From an uncultured Opitutales bacterium (GTDB lineage: Bacteria; Verrucomicrobiota; Verrucomicrobiia; Opitutales; Intestinicryptomonadaceae): 64,000 nt of DNA. Each line of letters begins with the position of its first letter. Position 1 is the first letter of the stretch. Shown here one piece after another: positions 22,112 to 29,191 of this stretch. A program made the translations under genes and the position numbers. The notes under the pieces were generated by a model. It did not search any database. It saw nothing but the letters and a program-made list of their open reading frames with translations, and was not told where the DNA came from. The DNA is taken from NCBI GenBank assembly GCA_944389195.1, contig CALXLM010000011.1, positions 1 through 64,000 of the forward strand. Reading direction: 5' to 3'.

Positions 22112-22699
22112 CTATAACTCCGTCACTATGCCGTCCGCAAGGCCGTAGTCTATGGCTTCTTTAGCGGTCATAAAGAAGTCACGGTCGGTGTCGGTCGCTA
22201 TTTTTTCGAGGGGCTGCCCGGAGGCTTCGGCAAGTATTTTATTCAACTCCTCCCTCATGCGTTCGAGCTCCATCGCCTGAATGTGCATGTCTACCGCCGT
22301 TCCGCTCATTTCTCCCATTATTAGCGGCTGGTGTATCATAACGCGGGCGTTCGGGAAAAGAAAGCGCCTGCCCTTGGAGGCGGCGGACAACAGAATCGAA
22401 CCCATGCTCATGGCTATTCCCACAACCACAACCTTTACGGGCGCCTTTATGAGCTTCATGGTGTCGTAAACGGCCATGCCGGCGCTTATCGACCCTCCGG
22501 GGGTGCTCATATAAAGCGTTATCTCCTTTTCATGGTCGAGCATGTCCAAATATAGCAGCTTTTTTACGATGTCCGACGAGCTTTCGTCGCTTACTTCGTC
22601 CCACAAAAATATTTTTCGCTCTTCGAGAAAGCGCTTGTTGATTTCGTTGGCGAGGGAGTTCTTCGCCGAATCTTTGTTTTCGCATTTTTTTTCGTTCAT
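22112..22699 (-). CDS. clpP: ATP-dependent Clp protease proteolytic subunit
   Basis: A 195-residue ClpP, the barrel protease that works with ClpX or ClpA. The catalytic triad is intact: S101 in AMSMGSILL, H123 in MIHQP and probably D170 in ATDTDRDFFM. The oligomerisation and substrate-channel segment TPGGSISAGMAVYDTM (about 66-81) is also present. The ATG overlaps the metW stop (ATGA). A second clpP would normally sit by tig and clpX, so this copy beside methionine genes may be a paralogue. No terminator is clear downstream. Confidence 0.93.
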   Translation of the reverse strand: MNEKKCENKDSAKNSLANEINKRFLEERKIFLWDEVSDESSSDIVKKLLYLDMLDHEKEITLYMSTPGGSISAGMAVYDTMKLIKAPVKVVVVGIAMSMGSILLSAASKGRRFLFPNARVMIHQPLIMGEMSGTAVDMHIQAMELERMREELNKILAEASGQPLEKIATDTDRDFFMTAKEAIDYGLADGIVTEL

Positions 22700-23328
22700 C
22701 GTCTTTTTTCCTTAAAAATTTCAAATATGGCGTACCCCGAAAATATGTTTGGGAGAAGTTTGCACGGGGTTTCCCAGTCGCCGCGCAGAAAATGGGAACG
22801 CGCTATCTTTATATCGTTTTCCGCGCAGAATTCCTTAAACGAATTTACGGAAATTGCGTTGGTGGGCCGCGACGAATCCCACTTTAGGGGGAAAACTTCG
22901 TTTACGATGCGGTCGCCGGTCAGCGCCGTCGTGAGGCGGTTGCGCCAATAGGCGTGGTTTACAAACCCCACCGCAACCCTTCTGCCGACGCGGAGCGCCT
23001 CGAACACCACGTCCTTGGCATTTTCCAGTTCGGGAAGGGTTCTTGAACACACAATCCAGTCGAATGAGGCGTCGTCGAAGGCCGACAAAAGATCCATAAT
23101 GTCGCCGTGGTACGCGTTAACGCCGCGTTTTATTGCCCGGACTATTTTGTCGAAATCGGTATCCACGCCCACGCCGTATATGTTCTTGCGGCGCGCGAGC
23201 TCGTTTAGGAGTATTCCGCGCCCGCAGCCCAAGTCGAGCACCCGTTCGCCTTCGGAAATCCATTCGCTTATGGCCCTAAGCTCGATTTTTCTTTTCGACA
23301 ATGACTTTGAGTTCTTATCGTCAGGCAT
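22696..23328 (-). CDS. metW: Methionine biosynthesis protein MetW
   Basis: A 210-residue SAM-methyltransferase-fold protein. The SAM motif is VLDLGCGRGILLNELA (about 30-45), followed by GVDTDFDKI and the MetW-like pattern of ALRVGRRVAVGFVNHAYWRNRL. MetW is needed with MetX for homoserine O-acylation in several bacteria, although its exact activity is unclear. It overlaps the end of metX by eight bases (ATGCCTGA), a common metX-metW arrangement, which supports the naming. Confidence 0.92.
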   Translation of the reverse strand: MPDDKNSKSLSKRKIELRAISEWISEGERVLDLGCGRGILLNELARRKNIYGVGVDTDFDKIVRAIKRGVNAYHGDIMDLLSAFDDASFDWIVCSRTLPELENAKDVVFEALRVGRRVAVGFVNHAYWRNRLTTALTGDRIVNEVFPLKWDSSRPTNAISVNSFKEFCAENDIKIARSHFLRGDWETPCKLLPNIFSGYAIFEIFKEKRR

Positions 23329-24463
23329 TTAGAAAATACTCCACTAAATTGTAAAGTTTCGGAGAGTGTATCAGAAACGAGTCGTGCCCCAAGTCGCTTT
23401 TTATTTCCGCGTACGAGGCCGTCTTGCCTATGCGCAGAAGCGCCTTTACGATTTCGCGGTTCTGTTGGGGTGGGAACAGCCAGTCGGATGTGAAACCCAC
23501 CACGAGCGTTTTCGCCTCGACGTTTTTAAAGGCGGCTTCGAGGCTTCCTCCGTAGTTTCGCAGGTCGAACAGGTCGAGCGCGCGCGTAAAGTACAGGTAC
23601 GTGTTTGCGTCGAACCGGTTTACGAAGCTCTGCCCCTGGTAGTGCAGGTAGTTTTCTATTTCAAAGGACGGCTTGAAAATTTCGTCTCCGGCGATTTTTT
23701 TATGCTCGCGTCCGAACTTGTCGTCGAGCCCCTTGTCGGAGAGGTACGTTATGTGCGCCATCATGCGGGCTATCCCGAGCCCTACGCTTGGAACGCGCGC
23801 AAGTTCGTAGTTTCCGCCGTTCCAGACGGGATCCTGCATTATCGCGGAGCGCCCGACCTCGTTGAAGGCTATCGCCTGCGCGTTCTGGCGGGAAGTTGTT
23901 GCAAGCGCGCATATTTTTTCAACGCGGTCCGGAAAGTCTATCGCCCACTGGAGCGCCTGCATGCCGCCCATAGAGCCTCCTATGGCCATGGCGAGCTTGC
24001 CGATTCCCAAATGCGACACGAGCCTTTCCTGCACCGAGACCATGTCGCGCATGGTCACCGCGGGAAATGTAAGGTTGTAGCGTTGCCCCGTTTTCGGATT
24101 TACGGACGAAGGCCCCGTGGTTCCACGGCAACCGCCTATGCAGTTTGAGCAGATTACGAAATATTTGTTCGTATCGAGCGGCTTTTCGGGGCCTATTATG
24201 TTGTTCCACCAGCCCGACTTTTTGTCGCGTATCGAATATACCCCTGCGCAGTGGTGGTCTCCCGTGAGGGCGTGGCATACGAGTATGGCGTTGGACTTTT
24301 CCTCGTTTAGCCTGCCGTATGTCTCATAGCGCACGTTGAACGAATCGAGCCTTCCGCCGAGTTCGAAATCGAGCGGCTCATCGCAATAAAAGTCGCTATA
24401 CTCCACGATGCCCACGTCTCCCCCGTACTTTTCGGCGTGCGTGACTGTGTCGGAATCGTTCAT
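23321..24463 (-). CDS. metX: Homoserine O-acyltransferase MetX
   Basis: A 380-residue alpha/beta-hydrolase acyltransferase. It transfers an acetyl (or succinyl) group to homoserine in the methionine pathway. The nucleophile is S164 in AIGGSMGGMQAL, the acid is the Asp in FTSDWLFPP and the base is the His in LGHDSFLIH near the C-terminus. The oxyanion region is ILVCHALTGDHHCAG. Acetyl versus succinyl specificity cannot be settled by eye. The gene is coupled to metW and lies 31 bases after the HtrA-like gene, too close for a SAM riboswitch. Confidence 0.93.
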   Translation of the reverse strand: MNDSDTVTHAEKYGGDVGIVEYSDFYCDEPLDFELGGRLDSFNVRYETYGRLNEEKSNAILVCHALTGDHHCAGVYSIRDKKSGWWNNIIGPEKPLDTNKYFVICSNCIGGCRGTTGPSSVNPKTGQRYNLTFPAVTMRDMVSVQERLVSHLGIGKLAMAIGGSMGGMQALQWAIDFPDRVEKICALATTSRQNAQAIAFNEVGRSAIMQDPVWNGGNYELARVPSVGLGIARMMAHITYLSDKGLDDKFGREHKKIAGDEIFKPSFEIENYLHYQGQSFVNRFDANTYLYFTRALDLFDLRNYGGSLEAAFKNVEAKTLVVGFTSDWLFPPQQNREIVKALLRIGKTASYAEIKSDLGHDSFLIHSPKLYNLVEYFLNA

Positions 24464-24494: not shown

Positions 24495-25625
24495 TTAATT
24501 TTGGGAGGCCGAAGGCCTGGATGTTTTTTTGTCCTGCCTTCCGGATTTTGCCCCGCCGTTTTTTTTGGTCTCCATCCCCGACAGGTTCGATTCGGCCGCC
24601 TTGATTATGTCCGAAGACATGCGCTCGGCGAGAACTTCGAGCTTCATGAGTTTCCCCGCGCGCCTGATTTTAAATACGGCCGTCTCTCCCGGCCTGACGA
24701 AAAACGTACAGTCACGCAGCTCCGTATTGTTTGTCACGCGCTTTGAGTTTATCTCGACGATTTCGTCGCCAACGTTGAATCCGCCTTTTTTTGCAGGGGC
24801 GTTTTCGGCGACGAGGCTGACCACCACTTTTGTGCCGTCGGTCGATTCCGCATCCTCGGCGCGGAGCCCGAACCAGCTGTAAACGGGTTCGCCGCACAGA
24901 ATGATGTCGTCGCGTATCTTCGATACGGCCTTTGCGGGAAGTATGAAGCTTCCGCCAGTTTCGGGAATGGAGGCTATCGTCATGCCGACGAATTTTCCGT
25001 TAAGGTCGAACACCGCCCCGCCCGCGCTTCCGCGCGGCGATAGAATTGTCGTTCTAACATACACGGTGGGAAGAAACGTTCCGCCGAACTCTATGTTGTG
25101 ACCGGAGGCGAGGCCGAGGCGGGGGGAGGGCGGCAGGCCCATTTCGTACGATACCGCCACAAGCATAGTACCTATTTTCGGCAGGGCGGACGAAGCGTCC
25201 ATCGTTATGATTGGGGCGTCTTTAGATTTGAAACCGCGCGCAGCCTTTACTATTGCGACGGTCGTTAGAGGATCGAACCCTACGATTTTTGCGTCCATAA
25301 TGGCGCCCTTCCATTCTATCCAAATTTTTTCCGCGCGGTGCGTCACAAAAGCGCTCGTCATGACAATCCCGTCTTTGCTTACGAGGAATCCCGTTCCGAC
25401 GTCGAGCACGGAAATGTTTTTCATATTCCCGCCTTCGTCCTTTGTATAGGTTGTTTTTTGCGCGTAAACTTTTACTGTGGCGTCTTTTACAGATTCGAAA
25501 ACCGAATATAGCTTGTCCTGCACGGTGTCGGCCGACGGCTGCGCCGCATATGCGCGCGCAAATACGGCGCACACACACACGCCCGCCAACATGAACAATT
25601 TGATCGGTTTCACCATTATGCGCAT
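24495..25625 (-). CDS. HtrA-like trypsin-fold/PDZ protein lacking the catalytic triad
   Basis: A 376-residue exported protein with a signal peptide (cleavage near AYA-A28), a trypsin-like domain (about 35-240) and one PDZ domain (about 250-335), and a Lys/Ser-rich tail. The fold is clear from VGTGFLVSKDGIVMT and IVGFDPLTTVAIVKA. At the positions of the HtrA triad I read Phe93 for His (TSAFV against TNNHV), Thr122 for Asp (LTTVA against TDLA) and Ala201 for Ser (GSAGGA against GNSGGP). It should therefore be inactive as a protease and may bind misfolded or C-terminal peptides. A TATAGA at 25630-25625 sits so close to the ATG at 25616 that the true start may be there, with almost no leader. Confidence 0.85.
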   Translation of the reverse strand: MRIMVKPIKLFMLAGVCVCAVFARAYAAQPSADTVQDKLYSVFESVKDATVKVYAQKTTYTKDEGGNMKNISVLDVGTGFLVSKDGIVMTSAFVTHRAEKIWIEWKGAIMDAKIVGFDPLTTVAIVKAARGFKSKDAPIITMDASSALPKIGTMLVAVSYEMGLPPSPRLGLASGHNIEFGGTFLPTVYVRTTILSPRGSAGGAVFDLNGKFVGMTIASIPETGGSFILPAKAVSKIRDDIILCGEPVYSWFGLRAEDAESTDGTKVVVSLVAENAPAKKGGFNVGDEIVEINSKRVTNNTELRDCTFFVRPGETAVFKIRRAGKLMKLEVLAERMSSDIIKAAESNLSGMETKKNGGAKSGRQDKKTSRPSASQN

Positions 25626-25828: not shown

Positions 25829-28800
25829 ATGAATGCGAATGTTTTTAGGCTCATAGCAGCGTTTTCGGCGGCGTTTTTTTCGTTTGTCGCGGCTCATGGA
25901 AGTATGCATAAAGATTGCGGCGCATATATTATAATCGAATCCGTTGCGAACTTGGAGTTTAAGGATCCATCGCCGGGGGCCGTTGTGGCGAAGTCGCCTA
26001 TTGTAAAAAACAACGTCAAGAAGTGCCTTATCAGGGTTAATTATACGAATTCAGGCGACGCATGGGAAAAGGTTTCCCTTAAGTTCAAGGCGGACGCCGA
26101 CGCGCCCGTGACGATAGCGTTTGCGGGCAAATGGGTTTCCAAGGACGGAAAGATGCTCCCCCTGGCGTCGATGTACGACGACGTGAGAATCGACGGGGTT
26201 CAGATTCCGAACGGGGGCTTTGAAAACGGATTGAAATTTTGGCGGCCGGAAAGGCTGGTTCCTCCCGCAAAAATAATGGGAAAGGAGGCCTACGAGGGTT
26301 CAAGGTGCCTTAGGACATGGTCCCAGGCTTACATTGCGCAGGATATAAACGCCGTAAAGGACAAGTGGTACGAGCTGTCGTTTGTGACGCGCCCTTTCGG
26401 CGCGGTGTCGGAGGATTCGGACGATGTGCCGCTGGATATTTCAAAGAGCGCAAATTTTTCAACTTCCGATATAAAAAAATTTAAGTCGAGGTTCGATCTT
26501 TCGAAACTTCCGATCGGTGCCGTGAAGCTCGGCGGCATATCGTTTAACATTTTGGACGCATCTTCAAGCGGCGGTAAAAACGCCGTTCTGTTTAAGTCGA
26601 AGGACGCTCCCGAGGGGATAGCAAAACTCACTTTTGAAAGGCCGGATGGCGGGAATTGGCTGTATCTTTTGCACACGTCCTTTTACAGCGGTTCCGGGCC
26701 GTCGCGCAACGGCGAAATAACCATGGAGGGTTCCAACGGCACGTTTGTCAGATACCCGCTGTTCAGGGGGCGCGACACCTGGCTGTTCGAGGACGTCCGC
26801 GAAAAGTTCGGAAACGTTTTCCCCGTATGGAGCGCCGACAAAAAGAGCGGCCTCGGCAAGATATACATTTCAAAATACCAAATCCCCGCAGGTTTGACCG
26901 ACAAAATAGAAATAAAATCGGAAGTCAACGACACCGTTATATTGCTCGGGGCTACGGTCTCGAATAAGGACGTCCCGACAATCAGGACAAAAACTTTCGG
27001 GCTGTCGAATTTCACTCCGGTTGATATGCCGGATTGCATCTATGTGAAGGAGGGCTCGGCTCTCGACCTGTCGGGCTTTTTTAAAAAGGAGTCTTCTGGC
27101 GACAGGGGCAGAGTGATACTGTCTGAAAGGGGGACTCTCGCTTTCGAAAAAACGCCCGGCAAGGACGCCAGGTTCAAGGGCTTCTCGGAGCATATGCGCT
27201 CGCATTTCCGCTCCCTGCCAAAGGACGTCCGCCGGGCGGAGATTGCCCGCTATGCGGCTTCGTTTAAAGCCAACGGATATAATTTTGCCCGCGGCACATA
27301 CGGGGCCGGCGACCTTGAACACGTTCCCGAACCGCTGAAGGAGGAGGCTATGGACATTCTCGACATGCAGCTTGCGGAGTTTAAGAAGAACGGCATTTAT
27401 ATCCACCACGTGTTTTACAGGGTCCCGCTTGAGGACTATAACTTTTATATACGGGACGACGTAAAATTGCGCACGGTTTTCGGCGATCCCTTTGTGCGCG
27501 CGGCATGGAAAAAATGCGCGGAGGATTCTCTTAACCACGTAAACCGCTACACGGGAATCGCGCTTAAGGACGACCCTATGCTCGTTTGCGTCGAGCTGTA
27601 CAACGAACTTGCGATCTGCTTCAGCAGAATGGACGAAAACTCGAAGTTCGATCCGAAGGACACGATTTTGCCGGAAACAAAAAAGCTCGTAATGTCGAAG
27701 TGGAGGGCATGGCTCAAAAAGCGCTACGGCGGAGACATCGCCGCCCTTAACGCCGCGTGGAGCGGATTTTTTGGCCGGGCGGTTTCGTATAAGAATTTCG
27801 ACGAGGTTGAGTGCATAGTGTACAGAAACCCCGATTGGGAGAAATGCTGCTGGGACCACCTTGAGGAGTTCATAGGGTTTGCGAGGAAAGTCGTGCGCGG
27901 CACCGGATACAAGGGGCTGATAGTTCAAAACAATCTCGGCACGGCTATATACGGAAGCGGGGTGAGGTCACGGACCACCGACTACGTCATATTCGACACG
28001 TATTTTTCGCACCCGTCGAGTTTCAACGCCTCGAGCGCTTCGTGCGGGCAGAGAAGCTCCATCGACACCTACGCCGACTATTGGCGCTCCATAGCAACCA
28101 CAAAAATCGACGGAAGGCCGTTCGGTGTCGCCGAATACAACCACTGCTTCTGGAATAAATACCGCCATGAAATGGCCGCGATGTTTGCGCCGTATTCGGC
28201 GTTTCAGAATTTTTCTGTTTTGACGATTCACGAGTCGGCGGTGGCGGTCAGCCCCAAGGCTCCGAAGCACGTCGGGTTCTTCAACGTGTTTAATTCTCCG
28301 GCGGCGAAAGTCAGCGAGCTTTTTTCGGTTTCGTCGTTCATTCGCGGGGACGTCAAAAAAGCGAAAAGAAAGATTCTTATGGAGGTTTCTTCGGACTTCC
28401 TCAAAAACAATCCGGGGTCGGCGCGCGCGCTTAACTCAAAGCAGACGATTCTCGCGCTTTTGACTGGTTTTGCCTCAAAATTCGAAGGCGAAGTTCCGGA
28501 GTCGGCTGAAAACATTAAACCGCGCAAGCCCGACATGACAATAAGCCCAGTCGGGAGTTCCGAGATCATAGCCGAGGCGTGGTACCATTCTGTTGTGGAG
28601 GGCGGCGACACTGAATTTAACATTCGGAAATTCTCCGAAATTCTGCGCGAAAAGAAGATTCTTTCCAAGGATAACAAAACCGACGTGGAAAAGGGAATTT
28701 ACCAGACGGATACCGGACAGATCACCCTTGACAACGGCAACCTTACCCTTTCTGTCGAGACTCCCAGGACGGAAATCGTCGCGCTGTCGAAGAAGCTGTC

Positions 28801-29191
28801 AGGAAACCTTAAAACTTTGAGGTCTGTTTCCACTACGGTTCCGGCGTCTGTCGGGCTTGTTTCTTTGGACGGCAAGAAGCTGGGGAAAAGCGGCAGGCTT
28901 ATTTTGGCTTATCTGACGCGCGAAGCGAATCTGGGCATGAAGCTTTCTCCCGACGACATTGTGGCCGCCGGGCAAGGCGACGGCCCGGTCGCGCTCGAAA
29001 ACGGCATATTGAAAGCCGAAATAGCGCTCAATCCGTCGGCTAAATATTCTGTTTATCCGCTCGCTTTCAACGGGGAACGCAGGGAAAAAATTCCGTTCAA
29101 GTTCGACAAGGACGGAATAATGACCGTCTCCATAGACAATTCGGCGCTTAAGAACGGATCCACTCCGTTTTTTGAGATAGTGGCCGAATAA
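25829..29191 (+). CDS. Large secreted clan GH-A-type glycoside hydrolase
   Basis: A 1120-residue exported protein with a signal peptide (about 1-23) and a perfect TAGGAGGA ribosome-binding site. Residues about 30-450 look like beta-sandwich or carbohydrate-binding modules (for example IPNGGFENGLKFWRPERL, a typical CBM4/9-like opening). A TIM barrel follows from about 450. The two catalytic Glu residues expected of clan GH-A are probably E593 in VELYNELA and E769 in GVAEYNH, 176 residues apart. The C-terminal part (about 880-1120) is a further beta domain. I cannot name the GH family; GH5-, GH39- or GH42-like members are all possible. It stands alone on its strand. Confidence 0.75.
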   Translation: MNANVFRLIAAFSAAFFSFVAAHGSMHKDCGAYIIIESVANLEFKDPSPGAVVAKSPIVKNNVKKCLIRVNYTNSGDAWEKVSLKFKADADAPVTIAFAGKWVSKDGKMLPLASMYDDVRIDGVQIPNGGFENGLKFWRPERLVPPAKIMGKEAYEGSRCLRTWSQAYIAQDINAVKDKWYELSFVTRPFGAVSEDSDDVPLDISKSANFSTSDIKKFKSRFDLSKLPIGAVKLGGISFNILDASSSGGKNAVLFKSKDAPEGIAKLTFERPDGGNWLYLLHTSFYSGSGPSRNGEITMEGSNGTFVRYPLFRGRDTWLFEDVREKFGNVFPVWSADKKSGLGKIYISKYQIPAGLTDKIEIKSEVNDTVILLGATVSNKDVPTIRTKTFGLSNFTPVDMPDCIYVKEGSALDLSGFFKKESSGDRGRVILSERGTLAFEKTPGKDARFKGFSEHMRSHFRSLPKDVRRAEIARYAASFKANGYNFARGTYGAGDLEHVPEPLKEEAMDILDMQLAEFKKNGIYIHHVFYRVPLEDYNFYIRDDVKLRTVFGDPFVRAAWKKCAEDSLNHVNRYTGIALKDDPMLVCVELYNELAICFSRMDENSKFDPKDTILPETKKLVMSKWRAWLKKRYGGDIAALNAAWSGFFGRAVSYKNFDEVECIVYRNPDWEKCCWDHLEEFIGFARKVVRGTGYKGLIVQNNLGTAIYGSGVRSRTTDYVIFDTYFSHPSSFNASSASCGQRSSIDTYADYWRSIATTKIDGRPFGVAEYNHCFWNKYRHEMAAMFAPYSAFQNFSVLTIHESAVAVSPKAPKHVGFFNVFNSPAAKVSELFSVSSFIRGDVKKAKRKILMEVSSDFLKNNPGSARALNSKQTILALLTGFASKFEGEVPESAENIKPRKPDMTISPVGSSEIIAEAWYHSVVEGGDTEFNIRKFSEILREKKILSKDNKTDVEKGIYQTDTGQITLDNGNLTLSVETPRTEIVALSKKLSGNLKTLRSVSTTVPASVGLVSLDGKKLGKSGRLILAYLTREANLGMKLSPDDIVAAGQGDGPVALENGILKAEIALNPSAKYSVYPLAFNGERREKIPFKFDKDGIMTVSIDNSALKNGSTPFFEIVAE

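Follow-up and report, generated by a model that had tools for sequence, protein, structure and literature searches.

A catalytically dead HtrA-like protein of Verrucomicrobiota and its probable place in RpoE-like ECF sigma factor control

Introduction

What a protein with the body of an HtrA protease can do once its catalytic residues are gone is the question raised by a gene in the window studied here, a stretch of 64,000 nucleotides from the genome of an uncultured Opitutales bacterium (phylum Verrucomicrobiota). A first-pass annotation had read the product, which we call pseudo-HtrA, as a secreted HtrA-like pseudoprotease, had treated the neighbouring metX-metW-clpP genes as an informative setting and had proposed a role as chaperone, decoy or regulator of a real HtrA. 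In described systems, the PDZ domains of DegS and AlgW read YxF/WVF ends, and RseB and MucB shield RseA and MucA from DegS and AlgW (PMC8545111).

Results

The architecture of pseudo-HtrA (Table 1) is that of an HtrA (S1C) protein, a trypsin-like domain followed by a PDZ domain, according to both Pfam and structure matches. Pfam matched Trypsin_2 over residues 77-215 with 55 bits, against a cut-off of 27.6, and PDZ_2 over residues 254-331 with 46.7 bits, and it placed one PDZ domain only in the protein, followed by a short tail. The score against the NCBIfam DegP/HtrA 'Do' model was 106 bits, far under the curated cut-off, and that against the DegS equivalog was 88 bits, below its cut-off of 423. 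The AlphaFold2 model (mean pLDDT 78.5) matches chains of DegP, DegQ and DegS with Z of ~26-30, Foldseek matches being in line with this; the HtrA fold and a single PDZ domain were retained. Pfam found no MucB_RseB domain in pseudo-HtrA, the fold being that of HtrA instead, and no TauE-like C-terminal domain. An N-terminal hydrophobic stretch ending in AYA-A, seen by eye, looks like a signal peptide, and the protein is probably secreted, as had been supposed.

Table 1. Location of pseudo-HtrA, its domains and altered sites, and adjoining features in the window
Feature	Position	Strand	Basis or remark
pseudo-HtrA gene	24495..25625	-	376 aa
Trypsin-like (dead protease) domain, ~residues 35-244	24894..25523	-	Pfam match and predicted structure
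PDZ domain, ~residues 250-336, peptide-binding-loop motif W-F-G-L (Gly253)	24618..24878	-	Pfam
F93 codon, catalytic His position	25347..25349	-	Alignments
T122 codon, catalytic Asp position	25260..25262	-	Alignments
A201 codon, catalytic Ser position	25023..25025	-	Alignments
Possible promoter of ECF type (TGAAC-N17-GTCTCA), immediately before the pseudo-HtrA start codon	25639..25666	-	Suggestive only
metX, downstream neighbour	23321..24463	-	NCBIfam; local to the window's family
metW, downstream neighbour	22696..23328	-	Pfam; local to the window's family
clpP, downstream neighbour	22112..22699	-	Pfam; local to the window's family

The triad sites were placed by alignment to DegP, MucD and DegQ chains and to the active HtrA of the same genome, and both alignments put F93, T122 and A201 where the first reading by eye had put them. 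The active motif LTNAH becomes MTSAF at the His site, DxxTD becomes DPLTT at the Asp site and GNSGGP becomes GSAGGA at the Ser site. The His-Asp-Ser triad of an HtrA (S1C) serine protease is missing and, judged by its sequence, pseudo-HtrA is a non-peptidase homologue and not a protease of the S1C family.

Whether this loss is shared was asked of 89 extracted orthologue copies, some of which are fragments and which, where they come from related genomes, are not independent. A few orthologue matches (G039:C38, G047:C2 and G071:C6) cross in-frame stop codons, which may reflect genuine loss, errors of sequencing or the edges of the matches. The His position holds S, N, Y, F, T and other residues, with H in 0/89 copies; the Asp position holds N (70), T (10) or G (8), with D in 0/89; and the Ser position is mostly G. 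Serine does occur at the nucleophile site in 9/89 copies, which could be taken as a sign that the catalytic centre was rebuilt and that the protein is a protease in disguise, but the absence of His and Asp at their sites throughout the copies makes this hardly conceivable. The specific alternative named in the first-pass annotation, a triad built from H96 and a nearby Ser, was rejected, as neither residue is conserved: in the nearest orthologues position 96 holds Y, C, R, M or N, and S200 occupies the Asn position of GNSGG, where most orthologues have E, Q or D.

Other positions have become newly fixed. P168 and R191 are present in 99% of pseudo-copies and in 0% of 15 active HtrAs, and A233 (94%), E104 (88%) and D240 (87%) are nearly fixed in the pseudo-copies and absent or rare in the same active set. 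The single PDZ domain has the peptide-binding loop of the DegS/AlgW type, and Gly253 in that loop is present in 84/89 copies. In phylogeny the pseudo-copies group in a single clade, divided from the active HtrAs by a branch with SH-aLRT 100. Orthologues occur in 11/19 genomes of the window's family, widely in the order and also in other orders of the class. The loss of the triad is old and conserved across a clade of single origin, and the residue pattern points to an old family under a constraint of its own, not to a decaying gene. Outside this clade, a Planctomycetota contig (L012:1-2004) encodes another trypsin-like/PDZ protein, apparently triad-less, which has NNYGGP at the Ser site, two PDZ stretches and an esterase-looking C-terminal domain.

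The genes around pseudo-HtrA differ between the window's family and other genomes. In the window and in several family genomes metX, metW and clpP follow on the same strand at close spacing, from which a function tied to these neighbours might be proposed, but among 40 regions of other genomes the arrangement was found only in the window's family, sigma and anti-sigma-like genes being the partners elsewhere. MetX, MetW and ClpP are moreover cytoplasmic, whereas pseudo-HtrA appears to be secreted. We consider a functional tie to metX-metW-clpP very improbable and rejected it as a family-specific context. On the other side, a divergent gene (25829-29191, + strand) encodes a probably secreted protein of 1120 aa whose match to glycoside hydrolase 42 is weak (26.4 bits), and a similar protein is encoded at L231 (C20).

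Outside the window's family the pseudo-HtrA gene is the third of a three-gene operon, behind an ECF sigma factor and a single-TM anti-sigma-like protein. This order holds in 73/78 copies, and a contig end interrupts at least one of the five exceptions; the same operon recurs in f30, f31, f34, f35 and f36, which belong to other orders of the class, and, within the phylum, in f40. In the genome studied here the pair lies at C15:28019-28633 (sigma) and C15:27572-28006 (anti-sigma-like), apart from pseudo-HtrA, and it was because of this location on another contig that the first-pass annotation could not see the link.

The linked sigma factor scores 111-124 bits against the ECF model TIGR02937 (NCBIfam; cut-off 42.9) and 135-155 bits against the RpoE equivalog TIGR02939, below its cut-off of 236, and we call it RpoE-like only. 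Its partner has ~140-270 residues, an N-terminal motif LLxLKRxExPxxxFWxxF, one hydrophobic segment and an outer tail of ~95 residues. An excess of K/R on the N side of the TM segment was seen in 69/83 of these proteins, and 5/83 have fewer. Hydropathy, charge and gene order agree with a protein of the RseA/MucA type, that is, single-pass with the N-terminus inside, a periplasmic tail and a gene that follows the sigma gene. No known family, and among them no known anti-sigma family, was matched in Pfam, NCBIfam or PDB, and a remote relation to solved structures was looked for and gave no match. It is from position and topology that we infer an anti-sigma factor and take the name.

The C-terminal residue of the partner is F or Y in 78/83 proteins, compared with 8.6% of the ORFs of these regions; in other orders the proteins terminate in VAF, LRF or VDF. 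Such an end resembles a PDZ ligand or the tail of an outer-membrane protein. The family f14, whose genomes mostly have no pseudo-HtrA, serves as a control: it has kept the sigma/anti-sigma-like pair, and the partner there ends in IKF, LKF or FRF. The notion that the F/Y tail exists just for pseudo-HtrA is weakened by this retention. The tail persists without pseudo-HtrA and must therefore have at least one other reader, perhaps an active HtrA, an S41 tail protease or an RseP-like protease. The f14 partner is also longer, about 260-310 aa (L209-L227, e.g. L218:2034-2843).

In the window's own family the sigma and anti-sigma-like genes are still paired, although away from pseudo-HtrA. The pair is present in 11/11 family genomes with pseudo-HtrA, and close relatives of both genes are absent from 8/8 genomes without it. 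In a weakly supported tree of the active HtrAs the genomes that have no pseudo-HtrA do not form one clade, and therefore the joint loss of pseudo-HtrA and the pair probably happened more than once. Pseudo-HtrA and the anti-sigma-like gene are associated across the order, with 149 genomes having both, 12 pseudo-HtrA only, 34 the anti-sigma-like gene only and 78 neither, in a table compiled from two search listings that ignores shared ancestry.

The promoter-like site listed in Table 1 would keep the relocated pseudo-HtrA gene in the sigma regulon, which is suggestive at most. In its form TGAAC-N17-GTCTMA the site has three copies in the genome of 2.37 Mb, before pseudo-HtrA, at C3:50553 and at C20:27062, and no obvious envelope genes lie behind the other two exact copies, one of which precedes a ROK-type sugar kinase-like gene. 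The motif was first seen in the very data to which it is applied here and is not general; a looser site, GAAC-N16-18-GTC, stands before 5/10 family pseudo-HtrA genes, 1/11 family sigma genes and 7/64 sigma genes elsewhere. The RpoE consensus GAACTT...TCTAA was not found.

The real HtrA that the first-pass annotation had supposed does exist, since the only other Trypsin_2 protein of the genome is an intact HtrA on contig C17 (L001). The genome also has M50/RseP-like and S41 proteases. Family genomes with pseudo-HtrA, among those examined, usually carry an active HtrA too. At three loci, L071 and L074 (G001, G002) and L139 (G016), the active htrA gene lies ~4-6 kb from pseudo-HtrA or from the sigma/anti-sigma-like pair, a distance that may hint at a working link.

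Discussion

The statement on pseudo-HtrA that is best supported is that it is a non-proteolytic part of an ECF sigma pathway. The proposal of a role as chaperone, decoy or regulator of a real HtrA is retained to the extent that a non-proteolytic regulator is plausible. We regard it as probable that pseudo-HtrA, dead as an enzyme, works in the periplasm as an HtrA/DegS-like component of RpoE-like ECF sigma control, a non-cutting regulator of an envelope-stress pathway, preferably in a place like that of RseB/MucB, and we infer that it would act either on the periplasmic tail of the anti-sigma factor or on the protease that cuts this tail.

The system type, a sigma factor, an anti-sigma factor and an HtrA-type periplasmic member, is known. 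As in sigma-E/RseA/DegS of E. coli and AlgU/MucA/AlgW of Pseudomonas, there is an RpoE-like ECF sigma factor, a single-pass partner with a periplasmic tail and a periplasmic HtrA-fold protein with one PDZ domain, and C-termini that end in F are in play. Unlike DegS and AlgW, the HtrA-type member described here has no triad and is encoded in the sigma operon, and unlike RseA and MucA the membrane partner itself ends in F or Y. Site-1 cleavage of the anti-sigma factor by pseudo-HtrA is not expected because the triad is missing. The proposed likeness to RseB/MucB lies in the position in the pathway, that of a periplasmic partner without enzymatic activity whose gene follows those of the sigma and anti-sigma factors; however, pseudo-HtrA consists of trypsin-like and PDZ domains in contrast to the lipid-binding MucB_RseB fold, and shielding is here a proposal only.

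In the preferred version, pseudo-HtrA would take the position of RseB/MucB with a body of the DegS type. It would hold or shield the anti-sigma tail, possibly with its PDZ domain on the terminal F or Y; misplaced outer-membrane-protein C-termini would compete for it, and pseudo-HtrA would release the tail. A real protease would then destroy the anti-sigma factor, the candidates being the active HtrA or the S41 tail protease, followed by the RseP homologue. The full form of this model, in which the anti-sigma factor carries its own aromatic PDZ ligand, is capped by a dead DegS-like protein and becomes accessible to a tail-reading protease once misplaced outer-membrane proteins displace the cap, is tentative and, on present evidence, rather doubtful. 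Against our main explanation it can be said that in f14 the pathway can run without pseudo-HtrA and the tail does not need it, that the sigma pair and pseudo-HtrA are unlinked in the genome of the window and that the membrane protein, by its sequence, falls outside the known anti-sigma families.

Dead HtrAs are known too, and MamO, a degenerate-triad HtrA of magnetotactic bacteria that is required for MamE-dependent proteolysis, is a precedent for a protein that works without catalysis alongside an active paralogue (PMC4794232). By analogy, pseudo-HtrA could join the active HtrA and switch it on to cut the anti-sigma factor, thereby promoting activation, and the usual co-presence of an active HtrA, together with its proximity in three family genomes, would fit. 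However, an active HtrA is also found in G007, G010 and G017, where pseudo-HtrA and the sigma pair are missing, and therefore the active HtrA has other work to do. MamO moreover activates via its TauE domain, which pseudo-HtrA lacks; it binds metal and serves magnetosomes, whereas pseudo-HtrA carries a PDZ domain, is associated with an ECF sigma operon and comes from another lineage. We find a MamO-like activator unlikely.

Chaperone activity is known for HtrA proteins such as DegP. Pseudo-HtrA might accordingly serve outer-membrane proteins in the periplasm as a chaperone or holdase, its gene being a mere target that the sigma factor controls and that does not signal back, and both the retained PDZ domain and the sigma-type site that several genomes of the family have ahead of the relocated gene would suit such a role. 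A plain target gene, however, need not be third in a sigma/anti-sigma operon across the class, nor need it vanish with the pair in the family, and we judge this explanation improbable. Membership in the sigma pathway itself, in the RseB/MucB-like place, is the reading that we prefer.

In the literature searched, which left most subscription papers outside its scope, we found no description of a dead HtrA in that place across a class, none of the three-gene operon and none of a sigma-E-type system in Verrucomicrobiota. If our interpretation is right, pseudo-HtrA would be an old and widespread pseudoprotease of Verrucomicrobiota that can be assigned to one pathway, the control of an ECF sigma factor, where a non-enzyme would have taken the place of DegS, and if the capping model is also true, a protease fold would have turned into the guard of its former substrate. 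The contribution that a DegS-like body can make to stress signalling without cutting would thereby become a testable question.
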